Below, piece after piece: positions 42,005 through 59,258 of a DNA stretch of 64,000 nucleotides (its first letter is position 1; each line of letters starts with the position of its first letter). Under the pieces are notes generated by a model that was not told where the DNA came from, did no database searches, and worked only from the letters and a program-made list of their open reading frames with translations. Made by a program: the position numbers and the translations under genes. Source of the stretch: Streptomyces sp. NBC_01298 (GTDB taxonomy: Bacteria > Actinomycetota > Actinomycetes > Streptomycetales > Streptomycetaceae); contig NZ_CP108414.1 of the NCBI RefSeq assembly GCF_035978755.1, positions 6,634,001 through 6,698,000 on the forward strand, given 5' to 3'.

Positions 42005-43042
42005 GTGAGCGACATGAACGACGGTGCGAACCGCGATGCGACGAAACGATCGGCCCGCGAGCGACTCCAGGCGGAGCGCGAGAAGCAGAAGGCGAGGGAC
42101 AAGCGGCGGCGGACCCTCGTCGTGTCGGCGGCGGTGGTCGGCGTACTCGGGCTGGCGGCCGTCGTCGGCCTGATCGCGGCGAACACCGGCAAGGGCGGAT
42201 CCTCCGCCAAGGGCGGCCCGCTGGTGGCCCCCTCCGGAGCCACGGGCAAGGACGCGCTGGCCATCCAGGCCGGCAAGGACGAGGCCCCCTCCACGCTGAC
42301 CGTGTGGGAGGACTTCCGCTGCCCGGCCTGCAAGGCCTTCGAGACCAATTACCGGGACACCGTCCACGAGCTGGAGGCCAAGGGCCTCCTCAAGGTCGAG
42401 TACCACCTCGTCACCCTGATCGACGGGAACATGGGCGGCACCGGCTCGCTCAAGAGCGCCAACGCCGCCGCCTGCGCGCAGGACGCCGGGAAGTTCTCCC
42501 CTTACCACGACGTGCTCTTCGACAACCAGCCCGAGGAGACCAACGACGCCTACGGCAAGAACGCCAAGCTGCTGGAGCTGGCCGGGAAGGTCGACGGACT
42601 GGACACCCCCGCGTTCCGCACCTGCGTCGAGGACGGTACGCACGACAGCTGGGTGAACAAGTCGCAGGACGCCTTCCGCGCGGGCAAGTTCCGCGGGACC
42701 CCGACCGTGCTGCTCGACGGCAAGGACATCTTCGCGGACCAGGCCAACCCGCTGACCCCGCAGAAGCTGAAGGAGAAGGTGGAAGCGGCCGGCAAGGGCG
42801 GCCCGGGCGGGGTGAAGGGCTCGCCGTCGGCGTCTCCGTCGGCGTCGGCGTCAGCATCGGCGTCGGCGTCCGGATCCAAGTCCAAGTCGAAGTCCGGATC
42901 GCCGTCGTCCTCCGTTTCCGCGTCGGGCTCGGCGAAGGCCTCCCCGTCCTCCTCGGCCCGCTCGGCGGGACGGTCGGCCACGGGCGGTTCGGGCTCCGCC
43001 GACGCCTCTGCGGACCACGACGGGATGCCCATGGGGCACTGA
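42005..43042 (+). CDS. Membrane-anchored DsbA-like protein with Ser/Ala-rich tail
   Basis: 345 aa from GTG 42005 (ATG 42014 possible). The charged head RERLQAEREKQKARDKRRR is followed by one TM (LVVSAAVVGVLGLAAVVGL) and a thioredoxin-fold domain with active site FRCPACKAFE and cis-Pro region FRGTPTVLLDGK. The last ~70 residues are a low-complexity Ser/Ala/Gly/Lys tail ending DHDGMPMGH, which could bind metal ions. The design matches the protein at 12789, apart from the tail. Expected role: extracytoplasmic disulfide chemistry. The next gene, lgt, is also envelope-related. Confidence 0.9.
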   Translation: MSDMNDGANRDATKRSARERLQAEREKQKARDKRRRTLVVSAAVVGVLGLAAVVGLIAANTGKGGSSAKGGPLVAPSGATGKDALAIQAGKDEAPSTLTVWEDFRCPACKAFETNYRDTVHELEAKGLLKVEYHLVTLIDGNMGGTGSLKSANAAACAQDAGKFSPYHDVLFDNQPEETNDAYGKNAKLLELAGKVDGLDTPAFRTCVEDGTHDSWVNKSQDAFRAGKFRGTPTVLLDGKDIFADQANPLTPQKLKEKVEAAGKGGPGGVKGSPSASPSASASASASASGSKSKSKSGSPSSSVSASGSAKASPSSSARSAGRSATGGSGSADASADHDGMPMGH

Positions 43043-43120
43043 CGGCCGTCTCGATTCGGCAGCAGCTTGCCGGACGGGTTGCGGTCACCACCGTCCGGCA
43101 AGGTAGCGTCGGCTCTTGCC

Positions 43121-44194
43121 ATGAACCTTGCCTTCATTCCCAGTCCGTCGACGGGCGTGCTCCATCTCGGGCCGATCCCGCTGCGCGGCTACGCGTTCTG
43201 CATCATCATCGGCGTCTTCGTCGCCGTCTGGCTCGGCAACAAGCGCTGGATCGCGCGCGGCGGTAAGCCGGGCACGGTCGCGGACATCGCCGTGTGGGCG
43301 GTGCCGTTCGGCCTGGTCGGCGGTCGCCTCTACCACGTGATCACCGACTACCAGCTCTACTTCGGCGAGGGCCGCGACTGGGTCGACGCCTTCAAGATCT
43401 GGGAGGGCGGCCTCGGCATCTGGGGCGCCATCGCGCTGGGCGCGGTCGGTGCCTGGATCGGCTGTCGCCGGCGCGGCATCCCGCTGCCGGCCTGGGCCGA
43501 CGCCCTGGCCCCCGGCATCGCGCTGGCCCAGGCCTGCGGACGCTGGGGCAACTGGTTCAACCAGGAGCTGTACGGCCGCGCCACCGATCTGCCGTGGGCG
43601 GTGAAGATCACCGACGGCCCGAACCGGGTCGCCGGGACCTACCACCCGACCTTCCTCTACGAGTCCCTGTGGTGCGTCGGTGTCGCCCTGCTGGTGATCT
43701 GGGCCGACCGGCGCTTCAAGCTCGGACACGGGCGGGCGTTCGCGCTGTACGTCGCGGCGTACTGCGTGGGGCGCGGCTGGATCGAGTACATGCGGGTCGA
43801 CGAGGCCCACCACATCCTCGGTCTGCGGCTCAACGTCTGGACCTCGATCGTCGTCTTCGTGCTCGCCGTCGTGTACCTGGTGCTGTCGGCGAAGCTGCGG
43901 CCGGGCCGCGAGGAGGTCGTCGAGCCGGACACTGACTCCGTGGCCGGAGCCAAGGACGGCGACACCCCGGCCGGGGAGGCCGGCGCCGAGGGCGACAAGG
44001 CCGGAGACAAGGCCGAGGCCAAGGACAAGGCAGGGGCCGAGACCGGGGACAAGCCCCCGGGCGAGGTCACCGCGGACGCCGAGGGCGAAGTCGCGGCTGA
44101 CGCCGGGGCCGAGGCCGGTGCCGAGCCGGTGGACGCCGAGGGCGAAGCCGACGGCAAGGACAAGGCCGAGGTCCCCGGGGCCAAGAAGCTCTGA
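43121..44194 (+). CDS. lgt: Prolipoprotein diacylglyceryl transferase
   Basis: 357 aa from ATG 43121. Seven TM segments. The Lgt signature GRWGNWFNQELYGR is at ~145-158, with LRGYAFCIIIGVFVAVWL near the N-terminus and YHPTFLYESLWC. It transfers diacylglycerol from phosphatidylglycerol to the lipobox Cys of prelipoproteins. A C-terminal tail of ~85 residues is very acidic with Lys/Ala repeats (GDKAGDKAEAKDKAGAETGD), longer than in most Lgt proteins and probably disordered in the cytosol. Confidence 0.96.
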   Translation: MNLAFIPSPSTGVLHLGPIPLRGYAFCIIIGVFVAVWLGNKRWIARGGKPGTVADIAVWAVPFGLVGGRLYHVITDYQLYFGEGRDWVDAFKIWEGGLGIWGAIALGAVGAWIGCRRRGIPLPAWADALAPGIALAQACGRWGNWFNQELYGRATDLPWAVKITDGPNRVAGTYHPTFLYESLWCVGVALLVIWADRRFKLGHGRAFALYVAAYCVGRGWIEYMRVDEAHHILGLRLNVWTSIVVFVLAVVYLVLSAKLRPGREEVVEPDTDSVAGAKDGDTPAGEAGAEGDKAGDKAEAKDKAGAETGDKPPGEVTADAEGEVAADAGAEAGAEPVDAEGEADGKDKAEVPGAKKL

Positions 44195-44213
44195 CCGCAG
44201 CGACGGTCGAAAC

Positions 44214-44250
44214 GGGAGGGGCGCCGCGCACATCGCGCGGCGCCCCTCCC
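44214..44250. terminator. Hairpin terminator between convergent genes
   Basis: Perfect 16-bp stem GGGAGGGGCGCCGCGC / GCGCGGCGCCCCTCCC with a 5-nt loop, then CTTT. It lies 20 bp after the lgt stop. Confidence 0.88.
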
Positions 44251-44284
44251 CTTTCGCGTGCGCGGGCAACCACGGGGCCGCGCC

Positions 44285-44332
44285 CCCGCACCGCCCCCGT
44301 CGGGGCCGTCCGCCCGCCGGGGGCGGTGCGGG
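44285..44332. repeat. Second inverted repeat before the CoA-lyase gene end
   Basis: CCCGCACCGCCCCCG and its exact complement CGGGGGCGGTGCGGG, 15 bp each, with an 18-nt spacer. It could be a terminator for the seven-gene minus-strand operon. The rest of the 253-bp gap is GC-rich sequence without visible genes. Confidence 0.7.
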
Positions 44333-44447
44333 TCCTGGGCGGTCGGGGGGTGGGCGGCGACTGGGCCCGCCCGCCCGGGTGCGGGGCCGGACGGGGGCAC
44401 CGTTCCGGACAGCAGGCCGCTCGCGTGCGGAGGCGGGTGGCTGTCGG

Positions 44448-45269
44448 TCAGGAGAGGACCGGTGCGACCCTGTGGGACAGGGCCACCACCCGTTCCGCGC
44501 CCGCCAGCATCGCCGGGTCGACGAAGCGGCCGTCGGGCAGGGCCACCGCGCCCGGGGTGCGGCGGGCCGCGGCCACGATCTCCGCGGCGGCGCTGACCTC
44601 CGCCGGGCCGGGCAGGTAGGCCCGCTCGATGACCGGGAGCTGGCGCGGGTGGATCGCCGCGCGGCCCAGGAAGCCGAGGGCGCGGCCCCGGGCGCAGGAG
44701 GCGGCCAGTGCCTCCAGGTTCCGGATGTCGGGGAACACCGACTGGGCCGGCGGCGCCAGCCCGGCCGCGCGGGCCGCGACCACCACCCGGGAGCGCGGCC
44801 AGTCCAGGCCCGACTCCGCGGTGACGCCGAGGTCGGCCCGCAGGTCCGCCTCGCCCAGGGACAGCCCGCGCAGGGCGGGGTGCGCGCGGGCGATGTCGTA
44901 GGCCCGTTCCACGCCGATCGCCGATTCCAGCAGGGCGTACAGGGCCACCCCGGGGGCGCGGTCGGCGGTGGCGGTGATCTGCTCCGGCGAGGAGATCTTG
45001 GGCAGGCGCAGCCCGGCGAGGCCGTGGAGCCCGCCCAGCGCGCTGAGGTCGGCGCCGCCCCAGGGGGAGTCCAGGGCGTTGACGCGTACGTGGACCGGGA
45101 CCGGATGCCGGTCGCCGAGCAGTTCGGCCGTGGCGGCGCGGGCGTACTCCTTGCGGGAGGCCGATACCGCGTCCTCCAGGTCCACGATCACGGCGTCGGC
45201 CCCGGCGTGCAGTGCCTTGGACACCACCTCGGGGCGGTCGCCGGGTACGTAGAGCCAGGTCAGGATCAC
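44448..45269 (-). CDS. HpcH/HpaI-CitE-type CoA ester lyase
   Basis: 273 aa from GTG 45269, which overlaps the CoA-transferase stop. LTWLYVPGDRPEVVSKALHAG and ADAVIVDLEDAVSASRKE (Asp/Glu metal site), RLPKISSPEQI and ALLESAIGVERAYDI are CitE/malyl-CoA-lyase-like blocks. It should cleave or form a beta-hydroxyacyl-CoA such as citramalyl- or malyl-CoA. It is the last gene of the operon that also carries a CaiB/BaiF CoA-transferase, which could activate its substrate. Confidence 0.88.
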   Translation of the reverse strand: MILTWLYVPGDRPEVVSKALHAGADAVIVDLEDAVSASRKEYARAATAELLGDRHPVPVHVRVNALDSPWGGADLSALGGLHGLAGLRLPKISSPEQITATADRAPGVALYALLESAIGVERAYDIARAHPALRGLSLGEADLRADLGVTAESGLDWPRSRVVVAARAAGLAPPAQSVFPDIRNLEALAASCARGRALGFLGRAAIHPRQLPVIERAYLPGPAEVSAAAEIVAAARRTPGAVALPDGRFVDPAMLAGAERVVALSHRVAPVLS

Positions 45270-46480
45270 AGGGCTCCTTCCGTGCGCAGTGCGGTGATCT
45301 CGGCCGGGGTGAGGCCGATCTCGGCGAGTACGGCATCGGTGTCCGCGCCGTGCGGGCGGCCCGCCCAGCGGATGGAGCCCGGGGTGTCCGAGAGCCGGAA
45401 GAGGACGTTCTGCATGCGGATCGGGCCCAGCTCCGGATCGTCTACCTCGGTGATCGTGTCCAGGGCCGCGTACTGCGGATCGGCCATGACGTCCCGTACG
45501 TCGTAGACCAGCGCGACCGCGGCCTCGGCCTCCTCGAAGGCGGCCGTCACCTCGTCCGCCTTGTGGCGGGCGATCCAGCCGCCGACCGCCTCGTCGAGCA
45601 CGTCCGCGTGACCGGCCCGCCCGGAGCCCGTGGCGAACCACGGCTCGGCGATCAGCTCGGGCCGCCCCACGAGCCGCATCACCCGCTCGGCGATGGACTG
45701 GGCGGAGGTGGAGACCGCCAGCCAGCGGCCGTCCAGGCTGCGGTACGTGTTGCGGGGCGCGTTGTTGGTGGAACGGTTGCCGGTGCGCGGCTGGACGTAG
45801 CCGAGCTGGTCGTACCAGAGCGGGTGCGGCCCGAGGACGGTCAGGATCGGCTCGATGATCGCCAGGTCCACCACCTGCCCGTGCCCGGTGCGGTCGCGCC
45901 CGGCGAGCGCCGCCATCACGGCGTACGCGGTGGTCAGCGCGGCGATGGAGTCCGCGAGCCCGAACGGCGGCAGGGTCGGCGGCCCCTCCGGCTCCCCGGT
46001 GATCGCCGCGAAGCCGCTCATCGCCTCCGCGAGGGTGCCGAAGCCGGGGCGGTGGGCGTACGGGCCCTCCTGGCCGAAGGCCGTCACGCGGGTCAGGATC
46101 AGCCGCGGGTTCGCGGCGGACAGCTCGGGCCAGCCCAGGCCCCAGCGCTCCAGGGTCCCCGGGCGGAAGTTCTCGATCACCACGTCGGCGGTGGCGACCA
46201 GGCGCAGCAGGGTGTCCCGGCCGCCGGGGCTGGACAGATCTAGGGTCATCGTCCGCTTGTTGCGGCCGAGCAGCTTCCACCAGAGGCCGATGCCGTCCTT
46301 GGCGGGGCCGTGGCCGCGGGAGGGGTCGGGGCGGGTCGGGTGTTCCACCTTGACGACCTCGGCGCCGAAGTCGCCGAGCAGGGTGGCGGCGAGGGGACCG
46401 GCGAAGAGGGTGGCGAGGTCGAGGACGCGGAGCCCTCGCAGGGGCGGGGCGGGGGCGGCGTCCCGGTCGGCGGGCGTCAT
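45266..46480 (-). CDS. CaiB/BaiF family CoA-transferase
   Basis: 404 aa. The ATG overlaps the ribokinase stop (ATGA), and its stop overlaps the lyase start. LRGLRVLDLATLFAGPLAATLLGDFGAEVVKVEHP is the class III CoA-transferase N-terminus, and the catalytic Asp lies in HGQVVDLAIIEPIL (near residue 170). NAPRNTYRSLDGRWLAVS is another block. It moves CoA between carboxylic acids. With the downstream lyase it forms a two-step acid activation/cleavage pair. Why it is joined to ADP-ribosylglycohydrolase genes is unclear. Confidence 0.92.
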   Translation of the reverse strand: MTPADRDAAPAPPLRGLRVLDLATLFAGPLAATLLGDFGAEVVKVEHPTRPDPSRGHGPAKDGIGLWWKLLGRNKRTMTLDLSSPGGRDTLLRLVATADVVIENFRPGTLERWGLGWPELSAANPRLILTRVTAFGQEGPYAHRPGFGTLAEAMSGFAAITGEPEGPPTLPPFGLADSIAALTTAYAVMAALAGRDRTGHGQVVDLAIIEPILTVLGPHPLWYDQLGYVQPRTGNRSTNNAPRNTYRSLDGRWLAVSTSAQSIAERVMRLVGRPELIAEPWFATGSGRAGHADVLDEAVGGWIARHKADEVTAAFEEAEAAVALVYDVRDVMADPQYAALDTITEVDDPELGPIRMQNVLFRLSDTPGSIRWAGRPHGADTDAVLAEIGLTPAEITALRTEGAL

Positions 46481-47382
46481 GAGGCGGCTCCGGAGCGGGC
46501 GAAGGTGTCGGTCTGGGAGCGGGTCGGCATCGAGTCCTGGGCGCCGGGGCGCTGCACGGACAGGGCGGCGGCCGCCGAGGCCCAGCGCAGCGCCCCGGGC
46601 ATCGGCCGGCCCTCGCCCAGGGCCACGGCGAGCGCGCCGACGAAGGTGTCCCCGGCGGCGGTGGTGTCCACGGCCCGTACGCGCGGCGCGGGCACGGCCA
46701 GCGGCTCGCGGCCGCGGGCGGCGTACAACACCCCGGCCGCGCCGAGGGTGACGACCACCTCCGGCACGTCCTGGAGCAGGGCGGCCGCGGCCAGGTGCAC
46801 GTCGGTGAGCCCGGTGAGGGCGGCGGCCTCGTGCTCGTTGGGCACCAACAGATCGGTGGCGGCAAGGAGTTCGGCGGGCAGCGGCTGGGCCGGGGCCGGC
46901 GTGAGGATGGTCCGTACGCCGTGGTCGCGGGCGGCCAGCGCGCCGGCGAGCACGGCCTCCAGGGGCAGTTCGAGCTGGAGGAGCAGGGAGTCGGCGGCGC
47001 CGATCCGGGCGGCGTCGCCCGGCTCCAGGGCGGTGACCAGGGCGTTGGCGCCGGGGATGACGATGATGCTGTTGCCGCCCTCGTCGTCCACGGTGATGTG
47101 CGCGGTGCCGCTGGCGCCCTCGACGGTGCGCAGGGCCGCCGTCCCGACCCCGGCGCCGGTGAGCGCGGAGCGCAGCCGTACGCCGAACTCGTCGGCCCCC
47201 ACCGCGCCGATCATCACCACCTCCGCGCCGCTGCGGGCGGCGGCGACGGCCTGGTTGGCGCCCTTGCCGCCGGGGACGGTGCGGAAGTCGCGGCCGGTGA
47301 CGGTCTCCCCGAGGCGGGGGGCCTTGGCGACGTAGGCGACGAGGTCCATGTTGGTACTGCCGAGCACGGCGATGGCCGTCAT
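46477..47382 (-). CDS. rbsK: Ribokinase-like PfkB sugar kinase
   Basis: 301 aa. The ATG overlaps the stop of the upstream glycohydrolase gene. GSTNMDLVAYVAKAPRLGET, VPGGKGANQAVAAARSG, LVPNEHEAAALTG and the catalytic Asp motif DTTAAGDTFVGAL (near residue 250) are close to RbsK. It probably phosphorylates ribose or a nucleoside-derived sugar with ATP. Its position directly after four glycohydrolase-fold proteins suggests it uses the sugar released by one of them. The exact sugar is inference. Confidence 0.9.
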   Translation of the reverse strand: MTAIAVLGSTNMDLVAYVAKAPRLGETVTGRDFRTVPGGKGANQAVAAARSGAEVVMIGAVGADEFGVRLRSALTGAGVGTAALRTVEGASGTAHITVDDEGGNSIIVIPGANALVTALEPGDAARIGAADSLLLQLELPLEAVLAGALAARDHGVRTILTPAPAQPLPAELLAATDLLVPNEHEAAALTGLTDVHLAAAALLQDVPEVVVTLGAAGVLYAARGREPLAVPAPRVRAVDTTAAGDTFVGALAVALGEGRPMPGALRWASAAAALSVQRPGAQDSMPTRSQTDTFARSGAAS

Positions 47383-49079
47383 GGGCGGGCTGCCTCCTGT
47401 GCGGTGAGGTGGGCGAGGGTGTCGAAGCCGATGCCGTCGAAGCCGGGGACGGTGGTGGCGAGGCGGTTCTTCAACGGGGCGGTCCAGCGGTGCGGGATGG
47501 CGTCGGGGGAGCCGGCGAGCAGTCCGGCGAGGGCGCCGGCGGTGGCGCCGTTGGAGTCGGTGTCCCAGCCGCCGGACACGGCGCGGCAGACGGAGTGGGT
47601 GAAGTCCCCGTCGGCGTGGGTGAGGGCGGCGGCGATCACGGCGGCGTTGGGGACGGCGTGGACCCAGTGGTAGTGGCCGTAGCGGGCGTGGAGCAGGTTG
47701 ACGACGGTATCGAACTCGGCGCCGGTGCGGTGCGCGTCCGAGGCCGCCCGGATCCCGTAGCCGACCGCCTCGGCGAGGCGGGAGCGGGGCGGTACGACGG
47801 CCAGGCCGGCCCGGAGCGCGGTGTGCACGTCGGCCCGCCCGGTGGCCGCGGTGGCGGTGGCGGCGGCGACGAACGCGGCGGCGTGGGCGCCGTTGCCGGT
47901 GTGGGTGAGCGCGGCGTCCCGGTGCGCCTGGGCCGCGGCGGCGGCCGGGTCGCCCGGGTTGGTCCAGCCGTGGACGTCCGCGCGGATCAGGGCGCCGATC
48001 CATTCGCGGAAGGGGTTGTGGTGGGTGGCGGTGGCGGGGGGCTCCAGACCTTGCAGCAGATTGCGGTACGCGACCCGCTCGGCGGTGAAGGTCCGGCCGG
48101 CCGGGAGCTCGTCGAGCCAGAGCCGGCCGACGTCGGCGGTGGTGAAGCCCTTGCCGTGGCGCTGGAGGAGGAGCAGGCCGAGGAGGGGGTAGTTGAGGTC
48201 GTCGTCCTCGGGCGTGCCGTCGATGTTCTCGGCGAGGGAGGTGGGCGCGGAGCGGCGGTTCCAGGGGTGGGCGGCGAGCACCTCCGGTGGGACGCCGCGC
48301 TCGGTGAACCAGTCGGCCAGGGGCCAGTTCCCGGCGGCCCTGGCCAGGGCCCGGATCCCGTGCAGGGGCAGCTTCTCCACGGGCTTCCCCAGCACACACC
48401 CGACGGCCCGCCCGACCCAGGCCGCCTCCAGCCTCCGGCGCAGCCCGGAGCCGGGGGCGGCCGCCCCGGCCCAGCGCCCCGCGGTGCCGTAGCCGGCCCG
48501 GGCGCCGGTGGCGGCCTCGGCCCCGGCCCCGGGCAGGCCCTCGGCCCCGGGTAGGCGCTCGGTTCCGGGCACGTCCCCGGCCTCGGTTCTGGGCCCCGGG
48601 GGGTGGGCGGGCTCGTGGCTCTGGGGGGCGGCGGGCCACGGGGCCGGGTCGGTGGGGGTGGGGAGGGCCGCCAGGGCCGTCAGGAGGTCGGTGGCCAGGA
48701 CTCGGAGTTCCGGCGGGGCCGGGGCGGGGGAGGCGCCCGCCCGGGCCGGGGCGAGGTGGCCGCCCGCCGCGAGCCAGACCCGCAGCAGGGGCTCCGCGGC
48801 CTCCCCGCGGCCGTCCTCGGCGGCCTGCCGGAACTCGTGGCCGACCAGATCCTCGGGCTGCACCCAGGTCAGCCGGACGGGGACCGGGGGCTTGCCCCCG
48901 GTTTCGGGAAGGGGCGGGGTGGGGGAAGTCCCGCCCCCGGCCCGGTCCGGGCCGCGGGCCGCAGGTCCGGAGCCGGGCTCAGGCGGGGCCGGGCCGAAGG
49001 CCACCGCTCCCGTGGCGCCGCGCGTGTTCGGGGCCGGGGCCGGGGAAGCCGGTGGGAGCGCCGGGCGGGTGGGGGTCAT
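47379..49079 (-). CDS. ADP-ribosylglycohydrolase-family protein with N-terminal extension (paralogue 4)
   Basis: 566 aa. ATG 49079 overlaps the previous stop. Residues ~210-560 are the DraG-type helical domain. Metal-ligand blocks are EDDDLNYPLLG (usual T-D-D becomes E-D-D) and GGWDTDSNGATAGALAG (D-x-D-S kept). The first ~200 residues are different: a Pro-rich stretch that includes translated dispersed-repeat sequence (TSPTPPLPETGG), a folded-looking block LTWVQPEDLVGHEFRQAAED, then another Pro/Gly linker. It probably cleaves an N- or O-glycosidic bond to a ribosyl group. The substrate is unknown. Confidence 0.85.
   Translation of the reverse strand: MTPTRPALPPASPAPAPNTRGATGAVAFGPAPPEPGSGPAARGPDRAGGGTSPTPPLPETGGKPPVPVRLTWVQPEDLVGHEFRQAAEDGRGEAAEPLLRVWLAAGGHLAPARAGASPAPAPPELRVLATDLLTALAALPTPTDPAPWPAAPQSHEPAHPPGPRTEAGDVPGTERLPGAEGLPGAGAEAATGARAGYGTAGRWAGAAAPGSGLRRRLEAAWVGRAVGCVLGKPVEKLPLHGIRALARAAGNWPLADWFTERGVPPEVLAAHPWNRRSAPTSLAENIDGTPEDDDLNYPLLGLLLLQRHGKGFTTADVGRLWLDELPAGRTFTAERVAYRNLLQGLEPPATATHHNPFREWIGALIRADVHGWTNPGDPAAAAAQAHRDAALTHTGNGAHAAAFVAAATATAATGRADVHTALRAGLAVVPPRSRLAEAVGYGIRAASDAHRTGAEFDTVVNLLHARYGHYHWVHAVPNAAVIAAALTHADGDFTHSVCRAVSGGWDTDSNGATAGALAGLLAGSPDAIPHRWTAPLKNRLATTVPGFDGIGFDTLAHLTAQEAARP
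48881..48930. repeat. Dispersed repeat embedded in paralogue 4 (orientation 1)
   Basis: Contains the palindrome CCGGGGGCTTGCCCCCGG, then TTTCGGGAAGGGGCGGGG and GGGGGAAGTC. The same element occurs inverted at 51812-51867 inside paralogue 2. It resembles the GC-rich repeats that normally sit between Streptomyces genes, but here it is read as protein. Confidence 0.75.
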
Positions 49080-50266
49080 CGGGGGGTCGTCAGGGTCGCG
49101 AAGGCGGCTTCGTGGGTGCGGCGGCGGGAGGCGTCGCGGGCGAAGACCTCCCGGGTGGTCGCGGCCAGCGAAATCGCCGGGGCGCGCAGGTCCAGACGGC
49201 TGGCCTCCGCGACCCGGTCCGCCCAGGCGGCCGGGACGGCAGCCTCGCCCGACAGGGCGCCCGCGATCGCACCGGCCATGGTCGCGATGGAGTCGCAGTC
49301 CCGGCCGTAGTTGACCGCGCCGAGCACGGAGGTCTCGTAGCGGCCGTCGGCCACGAGCAACATGCCGAGCGCGATGGGGAGTTCCTCGATGGAGTGCAGG
49401 CGGGACGGGCGCCGCGCGCCCAGGGACGGGGCGCGGTAGTCCGGGCCGACCGAGTCGTACGGGGCGACCGCCGCCCGGAGCGGCGACAGGGCCGACTCGA
49501 AGTCCCGGTGGCGGGCCGCGACTTCGCAGACCGCCGCGATGGCCTCGCGGGTGCCGTCCTTGGCCAGGGAGAGCGCGGTGTCGATGACCGAGGTGGCCGT
49601 CGCGCCCGGTGCGCACGCAGCCGCCACCGCCGCCGCGAACACCCCCGCGGCCTCCCGCCCGTACGAGGACTGGTGCGCGCCGGTGACGTCCAGCGCCTCC
49701 GCGTACGCCCCGGCCGGATTGCCCGCGTTGACGAGGCCGACCGGCGCCATGTACATCGCCGCGCCGCAGTTGACGATGTTGCCGGTGCCCGCCTCCCGCG
49801 GGTCCGCGTGCGCGTAGTGCAGCCGGGTCACGATCCACTTCTCGGCGAGGAAGATCCGCTGGAGGGGGAGGGCGTCCGCCTCCAGTTCGGGGATCCAGCG
49901 GGGGACCGTCATCAGATCCGGGACCAGGTGCTCGGCGATCGCGTACGCGTCCAGGTGGTCCCGTACGGCCTCGTAGACCCGGACCAGCGCGTGCGTCATC
50001 AGGGTGTCATCGGTGACGTGGCCGTCGCCCTTGTGGTACGGGGCGATCGGGCGGGCCGTACGCCAGTCCTCGTGCCACGGGCCGACGATGCCGCGCACCC
50101 GGCCGCCGTGCCGCTCCACGATCTGTTCCGGCGTCCAGCCCTCCACCGGGCCGCCCAGCGCGTCGCCGACGGCCGCGCCGACGAGGGCGCCGGTGATCCG
50201 GTCGTCCAGGGTGGGGGAGGGGGTGTGGGTGTGGGGCGTGGGGTCCACGGGGGTCAGGGTCGTCAT
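49076..50266 (-). CDS. ADP-ribosylglycohydrolase-family protein (paralogue 3)
   Basis: 396 aa. ATG 50266 overlaps the preceding stop. A short His/Pro/Thr-rich head leads to ALVGAAVGDALGGPVEGW. Then come the metal-site motifs GHVTDDTLMT and NYGRDCDSIATMAGA, with SSYGREAAGVFAAAVAAA between. All expected DraG-fold ligands (T-D-D and D-x-D-S) are present, so it should be active. Members of this fold remove ADP-ribose from arginine or act on related ribosides. It is the most canonical of the four together with the first gene. Confidence 0.88.
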   Translation of the reverse strand: MTTLTPVDPTPHTHTPSPTLDDRITGALVGAAVGDALGGPVEGWTPEQIVERHGGRVRGIVGPWHEDWRTARPIAPYHKGDGHVTDDTLMTHALVRVYEAVRDHLDAYAIAEHLVPDLMTVPRWIPELEADALPLQRIFLAEKWIVTRLHYAHADPREAGTGNIVNCGAAMYMAPVGLVNAGNPAGAYAEALDVTGAHQSSYGREAAGVFAAAVAAACAPGATATSVIDTALSLAKDGTREAIAAVCEVAARHRDFESALSPLRAAVAPYDSVGPDYRAPSLGARRPSRLHSIEELPIALGMLLVADGRYETSVLGAVNYGRDCDSIATMAGAIAGALSGEAAVPAAWADRVAEASRLDLRAPAISLAATTREVFARDASRRRTHEAAFATLTTPR

Positions 50267-52347
50267 GTGCGGGGCTTTCCTTGGGGCTTGGGTGAGGTGA
50301 GTTCCGTACGGGTGAGCAGCGCGGCCAGTTCGACGAGGTCGGTGCCCGCGAGGCGGGGGAGGGCGCAGCCGGAGAGGACGCGGCACGCTTCGCGCCAGGC
50401 GGCGGGGAGCGAGTCGCCGCCGCCGAGCGCGCCGGTCAGCGCGCCGGCGAGGGCGGGGGCGGAGTCCGCGACGCGCGACAGGCAGGCGGCGGCCGGGACC
50501 GCCTCCCCGACCCGGCCGCGGGCGGCGGTGGCGAGGGCCAGGGCCACGGGGACGGTTTCCGCGGCGGCGATGCCGTAGCTGTAGACGTGGTCGACGATCT
50601 GGTGCTCCAGGAGCGGGACGATCGCGAAGGCCCCGCCGGCCGCGCCCCTCTCGGCGCGGGCGAGTTTCACCGCGTGCCGGGCGTTGCGGCCGATCTCGGT
50701 GGACTCGGGGAGCTGCGCGAGGGCGGCGTCGACGGCGGCGTCCGTATCCGCCGCGGTGCAGGTCCCGGTGCTCGCGAGGGCGGTGGCGATGGCGGCGGCC
50801 ATGGCGCGGGCGCCGTGGACCCCGTCGCCGTCCTGGGTGTAGCGGGCGTCGAACTCGGCGAGGTCCGCGGCCGCTTCGGGGTCCCCGGGGTGCACGACGG
50901 CGAGGACGCAGGCACGGATGCAGGCGGCGTCGTCGAAGTAGTGCGGGTTGTCGTGGCCGGTGGCGGGCGGACGCAGGCCGGCGGCGAGGTTGCCGAGGCC
51001 GGCCCGGACGGAGATCCGGGCCCGGAGGGGCAGGACGGCGGACTCGACCTCGGGCGCGCGTTCCGCTGCCGCGGCGACCTCGCTGGCCAGGGCGTTCCAG
51101 GCGAGGTCGATGGCGGCGCGCATGCGGCGGGACCGGGAGAGGTCGCTGAGCAGCACCCCGGCGGCGGTGAGGACCGACTCGGCGGCGAAGGCGGCCCATT
51201 CGGCGTCGTCGGAGGGGCCGAGGCGCAGCGGCTCCGGGGGCTGGTTGAGGGCGATGGGGACGGGGAGGGTGGTGGTGGCGTTCTGCTCGGCGAAGGTGTC
51301 GAGCTCGCGGGTGAGGCGGCGGGTCCACTCGGGCATCCGGCTGGCGCGGTGGCGGGCCGCGGGCCATCCGGCGGCGTCGCCGGCGGCGAGCCCGAGGAGG
51401 AGCCCCTCGATCCGGCGGGGGCCGACGGGGTCGGCCTCGGTTCGGGGGGCTGTGGCCGTGGCCGTGGCCGTACGGGGCTGCGCGTCCCGCGGTGCGGGTC
51501 CCGACGGGGCGGTGAGCGGGCGGCCCGCACCCTCCGCCGGGGCGGTGCGGGTCGCCGCAACGGTGTCGGTGCCAGTGGTGGCCCGGGCCCCTGGCGAGGT
51601 GGTGCCCGGCGGGGCTTCCGGCGGGGCGGTGTGGGGCCGTCCGGGCCCGGTCGCGGCACGCGGCGGCGGGGCGTCCCGGCCGGGGGCGGTCCCGTTCGGG
51701 GGCGGGGTGCCGCCCGTGGTCCCCCGGCCGGGCGCGTCCACCGCGCCGGCGGTACGGGCCTGCGCGCGCGGCGGGGCGTCGTGCTCGGCCGGGGCCGGCT
51801 CCGGGGCGGGGGGACTTTCCCCGTACCCGCCCCTTCCCGAAACCGGGGGCAGGCCCCCGGGCCCCCGGACGGGGGCGGCCGTCGTCCCCGCCGCCCCGGG
51901 AGCGGCGTGGCCCCGTACCGCGGGAGCGGATCGGAGGAACTCGGGCACCGGCGTGCCGGCGGCCCCCCGGCCCAGGGCCGAGCCGGTCGGGGTACCGCCG
52001 CGTGGGGTCTCCCCGGCCGGGGTATCGCCTTCCGGGTCCCGCCCGGTGAAGGCGTCGGCCGGATTCCGCCCGGTCAGGGTGTGGCCCTCCGGGCTCCGCC
52101 CGGCCGGAGTGTCGCCCTCCGGGTCCGACTCGCTGAGGGCGTCAGCCGGGTTCGGTCCGGCCGGGGTGTGGCCCTCCGGGTCCGGCCCGGGCAGGGTGTC
52201 GGCCGGGTTCGGCCCCGGCAGGGTGTCGGCCTTTCGGGGCTGCTCGGCCTCGGGGGTGTCCCGTGGGGGCGGGCCCGGTGGGTCCGTGAGGGGGGCCGGT
52301 TCCCGGGGCGGGGTCTTCGTGGACGGGGGCGTCGGGGTCAGGGTCAT
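50263..52347 (-). CDS. ADP-ribosylglycohydrolase-family protein with ~320-aa Pro-rich leader (paralogue 2)
   Basis: 694 aa. ATG 52347 overlaps the preceding stop. The first ~320 residues are disordered Pro/Gly/Thr/Ala sequence with tandem NPAD/DPEG peptide repeats and a translated dispersed repeat. The C-terminal DraG-like domain starts RRIEGLLLGLAAGDAAGWPA. Its metal sites are altered: SDDAEWAAF replaces TDDT, and SRVADSAPALAGAL replaces GRDADT, so the first Asp of the D-x-D ligand is missing. It may be inactive or regulatory. Operon position between two intact paralogues. Confidence 0.82.
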   Translation of the reverse strand: MTLTPTPPSTKTPPREPAPLTDPPGPPPRDTPEAEQPRKADTLPGPNPADTLPGPDPEGHTPAGPNPADALSESDPEGDTPAGRSPEGHTLTGRNPADAFTGRDPEGDTPAGETPRGGTPTGSALGRGAAGTPVPEFLRSAPAVRGHAAPGAAGTTAAPVRGPGGLPPVSGRGGYGESPPAPEPAPAEHDAPPRAQARTAGAVDAPGRGTTGGTPPPNGTAPGRDAPPPRAATGPGRPHTAPPEAPPGTTSPGARATTGTDTVAATRTAPAEGAGRPLTAPSGPAPRDAQPRTATATATAPRTEADPVGPRRIEGLLLGLAAGDAAGWPAARHRASRMPEWTRRLTRELDTFAEQNATTTLPVPIALNQPPEPLRLGPSDDAEWAAFAAESVLTAAGVLLSDLSRSRRMRAAIDLAWNALASEVAAAAERAPEVESAVLPLRARISVRAGLGNLAAGLRPPATGHDNPHYFDDAACIRACVLAVVHPGDPEAAADLAEFDARYTQDGDGVHGARAMAAAIATALASTGTCTAADTDAAVDAALAQLPESTEIGRNARHAVKLARAERGAAGGAFAIVPLLEHQIVDHVYSYGIAAAETVPVALALATAARGRVGEAVPAAACLSRVADSAPALAGALTGALGGGDSLPAAWREACRVLSGCALPRLAGTDLVELAALLTRTELTSPKPQGKPRT
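51812..51867. repeat. Dispersed repeat embedded in paralogue 2 (orientation 2)
   Basis: Reads GACTTTCCCC, CGCCCCTTCCCGAAACC, then GGGGGCAGGCCCCCGGG. It is the inverted counterpart of 48881-48930, with a few mismatches and one 1-base length difference. Translated on the minus strand as PGGLPPVSGRGGYGESP. Confidence 0.75.
51990..52235. repeat. Tandem peptide-coding repeat in paralogue 2 leader
   Basis: Degenerate units of about 18 codons with cores NPAD, DPEG and TPAG (NPADTLPGPDPEGHTPAG, then NPADALSESDPEGDTPAG and further variants) occupy residues ~40-118. It is recent-looking internal expansion within the disordered leader. Confidence 0.75.
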
Positions 52348-53330
52348 CGGGGGGTCTCGGTTTCCGGGGTGAGGAGGTCCGCGATGTCCAGGACGTGGTA
52401 GCCGCGCATCGAGGGGAGGCAGCTGCCGCGGACCGGGCCGATCACCGAGGACCAGGCGGCCGGGATGGCGGGGGCGCCGGACATCGCGCCGGCGAGCGCG
52501 CCCGCGACGGCGGCCGTGGTGTCCGCGTCGCGGCCCATGTTGACCGCCATGAGGACGGAGGAGGCGAAGTCGCCGCCGCACGCGGCGAACGCGCCGAAGG
52601 CGAGGCCGACCGCCTCCGGGGCCAGGTCCGTCCAGGGGTAGCCGCCGATGACCACCGCCGAACGCACCGCCCGCTCGCCGCGCGGAGCGGCCGTCACGGC
52701 CCGGCGCAGGGAGCGGGCCGTCCAGGAGTCCGAGGGGATGACCGAGAGGGCCGCCGAGATGACGGAGGCCGCCGAGCCCCCGGCCATCGCCGCCGCGACC
52801 CCCGCCGCGACGGCCTGGCCGCCGTAGATGCCCTCGCCGTCGTGGCTGACGCAGCCGTCGATGGCGACCAGCCGGGCGGCCTCGGCGGGCCGGCCCGCCG
52901 CGAAGACGCCGAAGGGGGCCGCCCGCATGGCCAGACCGTCCGACCAGGCGTGCCGGTGCTGGGCGGAGATGGGGGCCGCCAGGCCCCGGCGGAGGTTCTC
53001 CAGGGTGCCGCGTTCCGAGAAGCCCGCGCCGCGGAACGGGCCTTCGTCCAGGTCCGCGATCCAGTGGTGCCACGCCCGTTCCACGTGCGCGACCGTCAGC
53101 GCCGATCCGTGGCGGGCCAGCAGCAGCCCCGAGAAGATCGCGTACTCGGTGTCGTCCGTGCCCGCCGGGTCGTCCGAGACGAAGCCCTCGATCCGGCCCC
53201 ACTTCGCCCGGATCTCCGACGGCTTCATGTTCTCCGCGGGGGCGCCCAGCGCGTCACCCACCGCGAGTCCGAGAAGAGCGCCCCGGGCCCGTTCGAGGAG
53301 GACCTGCGGATTGCATGCAATCAGCTCCAT
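52344..53330 (-). CDS. ADP-ribosylglycohydrolase-family protein (paralogue 1, operon head)
   Basis: 328 aa. The start is ATG 53330, with GGAGAGG six bases upstream; the frame stays open to 53573 but that part is promoter sequence. LLGLAVGDALGAPAEN, GTDDTEYAIFSG, SHDGEGIYGGQAVAAG and NMGRDADTTAAVAGALAGAMSG give a complete DraG-type dinuclear metal site. It should hydrolyse ADP-ribosyl or related ribosyl bonds in the cytosol. It is the first gene of a seven-gene polycistron in which every junction is a 4-base overlap. Confidence 0.9.
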   Translation of the reverse strand: MELIACNPQVLLERARGALLGLAVGDALGAPAENMKPSEIRAKWGRIEGFVSDDPAGTDDTEYAIFSGLLLARHGSALTVAHVERAWHHWIADLDEGPFRGAGFSERGTLENLRRGLAAPISAQHRHAWSDGLAMRAAPFGVFAAGRPAEAARLVAIDGCVSHDGEGIYGGQAVAAGVAAAMAGGSAASVISAALSVIPSDSWTARSLRRAVTAAPRGERAVRSAVVIGGYPWTDLAPEAVGLAFGAFAACGGDFASSVLMAVNMGRDADTTAAVAGALAGAMSGAPAIPAAWSSVIGPVRGSCLPSMRGYHVLDIADLLTPETETPR

Positions 53331-53599
53331 GGCGCGCCTCTCCACTTGATGGGACTCATATTGAGCCCTTGGGGGATTTGTGCCATGGCATGTGGTTTGT
53401 CGCTCGTCGCGAAACACCCGCCGCGCACCGCCGTCACCCGGTCGCCGATCCCCAAAACCCCAGGTAAGTACGGCCTTCCTTGCTGGCGGGCGGCGAAAAT
53501 CGTGCGTAGTTTCGAGGTGTTCAGGGGGAGTGGGTGTCCGCGCGTCGTCCATGGCACAGCTCTGCGCACTCATTCGTACAAAAGGGGAGATAGGCCGAC
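53331..53599. promoter_or_regulatory. Divergent promoter region, glycohydrolase operon / VIT1
   Basis: 269 bp without a gene. It holds the 10-bp palindrome TGCCATGGCA (53381-53390) and an imperfect inverted repeat GGTTTGTCGC / GCGAAACACC just after it. It is AT-richer than its surroundings. I cannot name a regulator. Confidence 0.45.
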
Positions 53600-54331
53600 A
53601 TGTCCATCATCGATATCGAAGCACCGCTTCACACCGCCCACCGCGACAACCACACCCACCGTGACGTCAACGGCGGATGGCTGCGCCCGGCGGTCTTCGG
53701 TGCGATGGACGGGCTCGTCTCCAACCTCGCGCTCATGACCGGCGTGGCCGGCGGCGCCGTCGCCCCGCACGTCATCGTGGTCACCGGCCTGGCCGGCCTC
53801 GCCGCCGGAGCCTTCTCCATGGCGGCGGGGGAGTACACCTCGGTCGCCTCGCAGCGCGAGCTCGTGCTCGCCGAACTGGACATAGAGCGCCAGCAGTTGC
53901 ACAAGCACCCCATCGATGAGATGGAGGAGCTGGCCGAGCTCTACGTCTCGCGCGGCGTCGAGCCGGCGCTGGCCCGCGAGGTGGCCATGCAGCTGTCCCG
54001 CGACCCGGAGCAGGCGCTGGAGATCCACGCCCGCGAGGAGCTCGGGATCGACCCGGACGACCTGCCGTCGCCGATGGTCGCGGCCGTGTCCTCCTTCGGA
54101 TCGTTCGCGCTCGGCGCGCTCGTCCCGCTGCTGCCCTACCTGCTCGGCGTGAGCGTCCTGTGGCCCGCGGTGCTCGCGGCCCTGGTGGGGCTCTTCCTCT
54201 GCGGCGCGGTGGTCTCCCGGGTCACGGCCCGGTCCTGGTGGTACAGCGGGCTGCGCCAGCTCGTCCTGGGTGGCGCGGCCGCGGGTGTGACGTACATCCT
54301 GGGAACCTGGATCGGCGGAGCCGTAGGCTGA
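53600..54331 (+). CDS. VIT1/CCC1-family metal transporter
   Basis: 243 aa from ATG 53600 with AAGGGGAG upstream. WLRPAVFGAMDGLVSNLALMTGVAGG and GLAAGAFSMAAGEYTSVASQREL are the two signature membrane blocks of the VIT1/CCC1 Fe/Mn transporter family. A charged cytosolic helix with many Glu follows (ELDIERQQLHKHPIDEMEEL), then three TM helices. It should export or store Fe2+/Mn2+. It is divergent from the glycohydrolase operon and could share its promoter region. Confidence 0.9.
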   Translation: MSIIDIEAPLHTAHRDNHTHRDVNGGWLRPAVFGAMDGLVSNLALMTGVAGGAVAPHVIVVTGLAGLAAGAFSMAAGEYTSVASQRELVLAELDIERQQLHKHPIDEMEELAELYVSRGVEPALAREVAMQLSRDPEQALEIHAREELGIDPDDLPSPMVAAVSSFGSFALGALVPLLPYLLGVSVLWPAVLAALVGLFLCGAVVSRVTARSWWYSGLRQLVLGGAAAGVTYILGTWIGGAVG

Positions 54332-54650
54332 CCGTGCAGGGAGTGAGACACTATGCAGTAGGCAACATAAGTAGTCAGTTACTCGGCGGTTTCGAACCTG
54401 TGTCCGCCGGGCATCACTCCCTGGGCGCCGGGCAATGAGGCCCGCCCCGTACCGGGACCTTCGTCCCGTGTCCCGATGGCAGGACACCTGCGAAAGTCCC
54501 CTCTTGCCTGCCCCGTGCAGTGTCCGCATGCTGGAATGGCATATCCGCTTCTCGGGATTGTCGTCATCATGTAATCTGCACGAAATTTCGCAGAGGGCCA
54601 ACGTCGTCCCTCGGCTATGCACATATGCCACGACGACGACGGGAGAGCCG
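54332..54650 (+). other. gltB upstream region (319 bp, no gene)
   Basis: The gltB frame is open back to 54435, but the part before ATG 54651 is AT-rich and lacks coding character. It contains a GlnR-like box at 54571-54586 and several AT-rich stretches (ACATAAGTAGTCAGTTAC) that could hold promoters. No small gene with a ribosome site was seen. Confidence 0.6.
54571..54586 (+). promoter_or_regulatory. GlnR-like binding box upstream of gltB
   Basis: GTAAT-CTGCAC-GAAAT matches the published Streptomyces GlnR half-site pair gTnAc-n6-GaAAc except for the last base of each pentamer. It is 65 bp before the gltB start. GlnR is the global nitrogen regulator of Streptomyces, so control of glutamate synthase by it is reasonable. 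Confidence 0.5.

Positions 54651-59250
<4,600 letters not shown>

Positions 59251-59258
<8 letters not shown>

Follow-up and report, generated by a model that had tools for sequence, protein, structure and literature searches.

Why would a Streptomyces genome line up four ADP-ribosylglycohydrolase (ARH) paralogues in front of a ribokinase, a CoA-transferase and a C-C lyase? This gene set lies at positions 44448..53330 of a 64,000-nucleotide stretch from Streptomyces sp. NBC_01298 (contig NZ_CP108414.1, positions 6,634,001 to 6,698,000), referred to below as the window. On balance, we think that the operon probably supplies the cytoplasmic enzymes of a glycoside-utilization pathway, in which the ARH-fold proteins would be metal-dependent (ribo)furanosidases, ribose would pass to the ribokinase, and a hydroxy-acid part would go to the CoA-transferase and the lyase. 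We favor this reading because related operons, including two in Streptomyces, are linked to an importer and a LacI-type regulator, because the importer's binding protein is associated with the operon, because the metal ligands of two ARH-fold proteins are kept across phyla, and because a ribokinase is encoded elsewhere in the genome where that of the operon is missing.

The operon and its importer-linked relatives

The seven genes (G1 to G7) run on the minus strand from 53330 to 44448, and each pair of neighboring open reading frames in the window shares 4 bases (five ATGA junctions and one GTGA), as originally predicted. G1 (52344..53330, 328 residues), G2 (50263..52347, 694 residues), G3 (49076..50266, 396 residues) and G4 (47379..49079, 566 residues, with an N-terminal extension) are ARH-fold proteins. 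They are followed by the ribokinase G5 (46477..47382, 301 residues), the family III (CaiB) CoA-transferase G6 (45266..46480, 404 residues; PF02515, CoA_transf_3, 406 bits) and the CitE-type C-C lyase G7 (44448..45269, 273 residues with a GTG start; PF03328, HpcH_HpaI, 110 bits). Comparison with three relatives shows purifying selection on each of the seven window genes (dN/dS 0.06-0.41), and the lowest value is that of G1 (0.06-0.08).

A search with the G2 domain at 1e-10 matched 105 of 147 genomes. Gene counts within Streptomyces were taken from 94 fetched loci rather than from all 105 matching genomes, with the window excluded and with matches under per-gene identity limits ignored. All seven genes are full-length in 56 of the 94 loci, and the genes found have the same order on one strand in 94/94; we therefore regard the operon as real and conserved, and not a product of chance. 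The predicted polycistron is supported, in that the seven genes likely form one transcription unit. Four loci have no G1 match (one of these also lacks G5, and three run into the edge of a contig), and four are degraded or cut. G5 is absent from 33 loci, including one that a contig end truncates, and 30 lack the ribokinase alone, making it the one operon gene that is often missing in Streptomyces.

The ARH domain (PF03747, cut-off 26.2 bits) is matched over profile positions 1-286 of 287, with scores of 201, 109, 170 and 159 bits for G1 to G4. The four domains share only 27-37% identity, a divergence that, judged by sequence, marks them as old paralogues. Metal-binding residues were assigned by what we take to be their equivalents in DraG and ARH3. 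By this assignment G1 has complete motifs (GDAxGxPAEN, GTDDTEY and GRDADTT), conserved in 25 sequences, and the site of G3 is likewise complete, with TDDT, D323, D325 and S326 invariant over 11 sequences. G4 retains the acidic ligands E235, D292-D294, D506 and D508, invariant over 11 sequences that include two from alphaproteobacteria, and has a T changed to E (the window protein reads D506-T507-D508). Thus the predicted intact sites of G1 and G3 hold up, but two is too low a count: G2 alone lacks the full set of ligands, with SDDAE, VADS in place of DxDT and a lost E in alignments. The N-terminus of G2 consists of about 310 low-complexity residues with degenerate NPAD and PEGDTPAG repeats.

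None of the four proteins comes near the curated cut-offs for DraG (TIGR02662, best 77.1 against 337.05 bits) or Tri1 (NF041672, best 50.1 against 490 bits). The solved structures nearest to an AlphaFold model of G3 (pLDDT 85) are DraG (2woc and 2woe) and MJ1187 (1t5j), at ∼17-23% identity, and the G4 domain, compared by sequence with the PDB, gave no match at 0.001. The 9.7 Mb genome that contains the window has nine PF03747 matches. Four are in the operon, and the other five are single genes in unlike contexts, none in such an operon as judged by eye. One of these five (G000:C1:7022546) adjoins genes that we take to be PnuC-, NadR- and NrtR/Nudix-like, a context that fits NAD or ADP-ribose metabolism.

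Relatives of G4, paralogues included, were found in 54 of 296 genomes in a class-wide search at 1e-20. Of 15 non-Streptomyces loci found in this way (L047-L061), 10 contain the complete set of G1 to G7, preceded by four genes whose sizes and order match those of an importer, and nine of the 15 also carry a protein of ∼640 residues, mostly between G5 and G6. These importer genes are named by Pfam for L050 and one gene of L048, and otherwise by size and order. In L050, the extra genes encode a LacI regulator, two permeases (BPD_transp_1), a substrate-binding protein (SBP; SBP_bac_1) and, in the 640-residue protein, an FGE-type domain. The L050 regulator, the only LacI of a relative scored against NCBIfam, best fits RbsR (191.6 bits, below the cut-off of 531), and the binding protein best fits MalE, also below cut-off.

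A scan of the collection with this ∼640-residue amylase-barrel/FGE protein (TIMFGE) yielded 178 loci, of which the best 80, some cut by contig ends, were compared. They come from Jiangella, Micromonospora, Amycolatopsis, Prauserella, Oerskovia and other organisms, as well as from Devosia, Paracoccaceae and Trueperaceae. G6 is present in 78, G4 in 76, G3 in 75, G7 in 73, the SBP in 70, G5 in 69, LacI in 68, G2 in 11 and G1 in 10. The most constant enzyme genes overall are G3, G4, G6 and G7. The order LacI-permA-permB-SBP-G3-G4-G5-TIMFGE-G6-G7 recurs in 54 loci, and eight more have the same order plus G1-G2. Junctions are mostly 4-base overlaps, as for 50 of 73 adjacent G3/G4 pairs and 47 of 69 G4/G5 pairs, and G6/G7 overlap by 4 or 1 bases in 68 of 74. 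G2 is accompanied by G1 in 10 of the 11 loci that have it (the remaining locus starts at a contig edge), which suggests that they likely form an active/degenerate pair.

The steady set extends beyond actinomycetes. Two alphaproteobacterial loci (L206 and L223) combine permeases, a binding protein, G3, G4, G6, G7 and the 640-residue protein, and L206 also has an ABC ATPase. A Trueperaceae locus (L212) has G1-G4, G6, G7, the 640-residue protein and a LacI-type gene. L060, from a 1.8 Mb genome of 47% GC, carries LacI, permeases, SBP (importer genes judged from sequence starts), G3, G4, the 640-residue protein, G6 and G7; G1, G2 and G5 were not seen there. A gene with an esterase motif occurs in 24 of the 80 loci. 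All five of the esterase-motif proteins scanned, which come from four loci, match PF00756, and most have signal-like starts as judged by eye. FGE (sulfatase-maturing) activity was considered for the C-terminal domain of the amylase-barrel protein; in the sequences read, just one of the two FGE cysteines, the last, is evident. In one locus (L061:2648-5638) the ribokinase and the amylase-barrel/FGE protein share a 996-residue open frame, which could reflect a gene fusion or, the genome being 72% complete, a faulty assembly. In one actinomycete (G271), G4-type paralogues stand at two other loci (L068 and L069) beside LacI, SBP_bac_1 and PfkB-like genes, so the occurrence of ARH-fold proteins within sugar operons may be more general.

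Within Streptomyces, the importer was traced with a Jiangella binding protein as query (cut-off 1e-30; orthologues of 44-50% identity, one match per genome). Full-length orthologues were found in 16/25 and 37/48 operon carriers, with one more partial, as against 0/10 and 1/15 genomes without a G2 orthologue. The totals are 54 of 73 (53 full-length) versus 1 of 25 (Fisher 3e-10), where the 25 are defined as having no full-length G2 match, in most cases by the G2 search alone, and some keep G5 at the site. A tree-aware test with ∼10 independent pairs, which 97 of the 98 tested genomes entered (2 of 120 rows were dropped for missing data), gave the same direction in 6.8 pairs, the opposite in 0.2 and no difference in 3.0 (median p 0.016, range 0.004-0.25). 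For comparison, a control trait, ribokinase outside the operon, is unlinked to the operon: 60/74 versus 21/25 (p 1.0), or 19/25 when site-only copies are left out (p 0.58).

In two Streptomyces loci (L274 and L275), LacI-permA-permB-SBP immediately precedes G1, in the gap that separates it from the VIT-family gene flanking the operon, which is the window's own site. The permease-permease-SBP trio lies elsewhere, away from the operon, in 14 of the 16 importer contexts. The LacI genes (L274:7984-9027 and L275:8946-10427) were found before the operon in only these two of 16, a count that relies on a LacI cluster spanning two loci and includes three contexts (L266-L268) seen in part.

Ribokinase, CoA-transferase and lyase

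The predicted PfkB sugar kinase is a true ribokinase by curated family: G5 scores 313.5 bits against the D-ribokinase cut-off of 299.65 (TIGR02152). G5 of L050 also exceeds this cut-off, and that of L048 falls 4 bits short. All 31 tested Streptomyces operon carriers without G5 encode another ribokinase, and in 29 of 43 carriers G5 is joined by a second ribokinase. Some ribokinase is present in 74/74 operon carriers, versus 21/25 genomes without the operon, which is only suggestive of a need for ribokinase activity in carriers. In the six contexts read from carriers without G5, the other ribokinase lies in a presumed rbs-like operon (RbsR-RbsA-RbsC/B-RbsK-RbsD-like, labels assigned by resemblance); most such ribokinases score slightly below the TIGR02152 cut-off.

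G6 and G7 were originally described as an unexplained acid branch. They do not look like an odd addition, since both are retained in the 30 of 94 Streptomyces loci that lost the kinase alone; elsewhere, however, the kinase (69 of 80 loci) is nearly as frequent as G7 (73). The best NCBIfam matches of G6 include succinate-glutarate and mesaconate CoA-transferases, and all are below the curated cut-offs of the named family III enzymes (NF052585, NF041294, TIGR03253 and others; best 223.5 of 750 bits). G7 is likewise below cut-off for RipC (146.4 of 375 bits) and CitE (136.8 of 443.4 bits).

CitE-type lyases such as Rv2498c reportedly act on citramalyl-CoA and 3-hydroxy-3-methylglutaryl (HMG)-CoA. 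The itaconate/citramalate branch (PMC6689899) places the same two families side by side, with the CitE-type lyases RipC and Rv2498c beside a CoA-transferase. The operon differs from that branch in the sub-threshold scores of G7 and in that the hydratase gene of the itaconate route is not among its seven genes.

A proposed glycoside pathway and its rivals

From gene content, order, conservation, importer association and purifying selection, all observed, we infer a route in which the action of ARH proteins on imported glycosides, the order of steps and the acid are put forward conditionally. Where the system is more complete, the enzyme genes come after those for a LacI-type regulator and a sugar-type ABC importer, which would, by family and association, serve glycoside uptake. 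An esterase that begins with a signal-like stretch might, in many lineages, strip an ester outside the cell, and the amylase-barrel protein could assist inside it. The dimetal proteins G3 and G4, joined in some lineages by the G1-G2 pair, would cut glycosidic bonds, one of them presumably a ribofuranoside. D-ribose would be converted to ribose-5-phosphate by G5 or RbsK, an assignment at family level, and a hydroxy-dicarboxylic acid part would receive CoA through G6, after which G7 would cleave it into acetyl-CoA and a keto acid in a reaction of malyl-, citramalyl- or HMG-CoA type. In Streptomyces the enzyme genes would have stayed between lgt and VIT-gltBD, and the importer would mostly have moved or been lost.

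The original proposal of removal and capture of ribosyl groups fits this route. The TIGR02152 ribokinase, the RbsR-like LacI and the kinase that stands alongside the paralogues in 69 of 80 related loci, as seen in the gene-neighborhood comparison that had been suggested, all agree with it. The ADP-ribosylation frame of the proposal does not fit the gene context. If G1-G4 removed ADP-ribose from Streptomyces proteins or nucleic acids, with the kinase, CoA-transferase and lyase only loosely linked, the DraG/ARH-type fold and metal sites would be accounted for, as would the ADP-ribosyltransferases and endogenous ADP-ribosylation of S. coelicolor, for which two papers list SCO2028-2031 as putative hydrolases (PMC5087735, PMC9411070). 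This account leaves unexplained why, in other genera and in two Streptomyces, the genes are consistently linked to LacI and an importer of sugar type, and it is at odds with the distant DraG and Tri1 cut-offs and with the separate contexts of the other five PF03747 genes. Recombinant SCO2028 and SCO2030 are, moreover, inactive on uracil-alpha-ADP-ribose, one ADP-ribosyl probe, according to PMC13036486. As a main role, de-ADP-ribosylation of protein or RNA was set behind the glycoside reading on gene context, and we judge it the least probable of the three alternatives considered.

ARH enzymes cleave alpha-N- and alpha-O-ribosyl bonds, and salvage of ribonucleosides, NAD or modified nucleosides, with cobamide alpha-ribosides among them, would employ them as N-ribosidases that hand ribose to a true ribokinase. 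A ribose-scavenging locus of Bacteroides pairs a ribokinase with a nucleoside hydrolase. However, importers of SBP_bac_1/BPD_transp_1 type suggest sugars rather than nucleosides, and salvage has no need for a CoA-transferase and C-C lyase, nor for the esterase and amylase-barrel protein of many relatives; we consider it improbable. Marginally less probable again is a pathway for a furanoside other than ribose (arabinofuranose, apiose or a ribitol-like unit) or for a sugar acid, in which G5 would handle a side product only. The absence of G5 from 33 of 94 Streptomyces loci would suit such a pathway, as would L059 and L060, where G5 was not seen while G3, G4, G6 and G7 stay, but a ribokinase is present in 69 of the 80 related loci, and the G5 proteins of the window and L050 pass the D-ribokinase cut-off.

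Several observations weigh against the glycoside pathway itself. Its main weakness for this strain is that no SBP match at 1e-30 was found in the window's genome or in the five nearest by G2 identity (G020, G119, G062, G107 and G052); 19 of 73 carriers, the window's genome included, have no such match. No importer gene was seen in the Trueperaceae locus despite its enzymes and LacI-type gene. The amylase-barrel protein was found in 0/101 Streptomyces by a search that was positive in 3/3 Jiangella-type carriers, and in neither of two carriers from another family that have the importer and G1-G7 (G229 and G278); it is therefore not a general part of the system, and its frequency in the 80 loci is uninformative since these were selected by it. 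G6 and G7 fall under every specific cut-off. The relation between G5 loss and a second ribokinase (p 2e-4 on raw counts) is not significant on the tree, with 1.2 informative pairs. G5 also stands alone between lgt and the VIT gene in two Streptomyces without the operon (L253 and L254, in G079 and G075), and because it persists there it looks like a general D-ribokinase that may serve general ribose metabolism. Coordinates suggest a lone G5 at the same site in three more genomes (G046, G098 and G105). Of the substrates weighed (arabinofuranosides, apiose, esters of HMG or malyl type, cobamide alpha-ribosides and the ribose of aminoglycosides), none is singled out by the data.

Nonetheless, the glycoside pathway remains our preferred reading, and we regard the operon as a variant of sugar-utilization operons built on the ARH fold. 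A broader version, which we advance tentatively and rate at somewhat below even chances, is that ARH/DraG-fold proteins make up an unrecognized class of intracellular dimetal furanosidases. Two to four of these per operon, in actinomycetes, alphaproteobacteria and Trueperaceae, would dismantle an undescribed imported glycoside that contains ribose and a hydroxy acid and is often ester-decorated, and the dispersed Streptomyces version would have been misread as machinery for protein de-ADP-ribosylation.

Known systems, flanking region and significance

LacI-regulated sugar-import operons of actinobacteria, of what we take to be CUT1 type, share with the relatives a LacI regulator, two permeases, an SBP, a kinase and intracellular hydrolases. 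This layout occurs in the relatives and at this site in two Streptomyces; the present system differs in that its hydrolases have the ARH fold, its constant genes include those for a CoA-transferase and a CitE-type lyase, and the importer is not at the window's own locus. DraG and ARH3 share the fold (PF03747) with G1-G4 and the dimetal-site motifs with G1, G3 and largely G4, but are separated from them by low structural-model identity and by the sugar-import context of the operon paralogues. The Rus locus of Bacteroides thetaiotaomicron (BT2803-2809; Glowacki 2020) resembles the operon in having a ribokinase and a hydrolase, together with transport genes for ribose use. It relies on TonB/SusD-type import and a nucleoside hydrolase, where the operon has a CoA-transferase and lyase instead; neither such an importer nor a nucleoside hydrolase is among the seven genes by Pfam, the wider flanks not having been scanned for them. 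Rus is also said to contain an ADP-ribosylglycohydrolase gene, and apart from that case we know of no sugar-utilization role for the ARH fold.

The flanking genes are named by resemblance. On one side lie trpC/B/A-, DsbA- and lgt-like genes, and the convergent lgt-like gene (43157..44194, plus strand), outside the operon, adjoins it in 92 of 94 Streptomyces loci. On the other side are a divergent VIT-family-like gene (53600..54331, plus strand), also outside the operon and present in 88 of 94, and gltB/gltD-like genes, with the gltB-like one at 54651-59258. The intergenic region between G1 and the VIT-type gene (53331..53599) contains a block at ∼53375-53515 that is conserved in 87 aligned sequences (the window and 86 Streptomyces loci) and reads AA..TACGC ... 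CCGCCAGCAAGGaAGGC .... Regulation of G1, of VIT or of the two together is a possible function of this block. The idea of a known RNA upstream of G1 was rejected, as an Rfam scan of 43000-54700 assigned no family to the block and gave only one sub-threshold snoRNA-like match.

The trp-lgt/gltBD neighborhood is the basis for equating the operon with SCO2028-2031 of S. coelicolor; SCO2038 belongs to the trpCXBA locus, and by position SCO2028 and SCO2030 would be G1 and G3. No paper on the operon was found in the literature searched, and two papers treat SCO2028, 2029, 2030 (and 2031) as uncharacterized DraG/ARH homologues (PMC5087735, PMC9411070). S. coelicolor reportedly has many more potential ADP-ribosylhydrolases than transferases (PMC5087735), with eight DraG homologues listed (PMC9411070). 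If the glycoside reading is true, four of these eight would be glycosidases of a nutrient pathway and the hydrolase surplus would shrink. The ARH fold would then have an unexpected nutritional role, and annotation of ARH-fold proteins in bacteria would need to take gene context into account. The gene set also hints at a glycoside, as yet without a name, on which many soil bacteria draw, and the importer's binding protein is the protein most likely to identify it.

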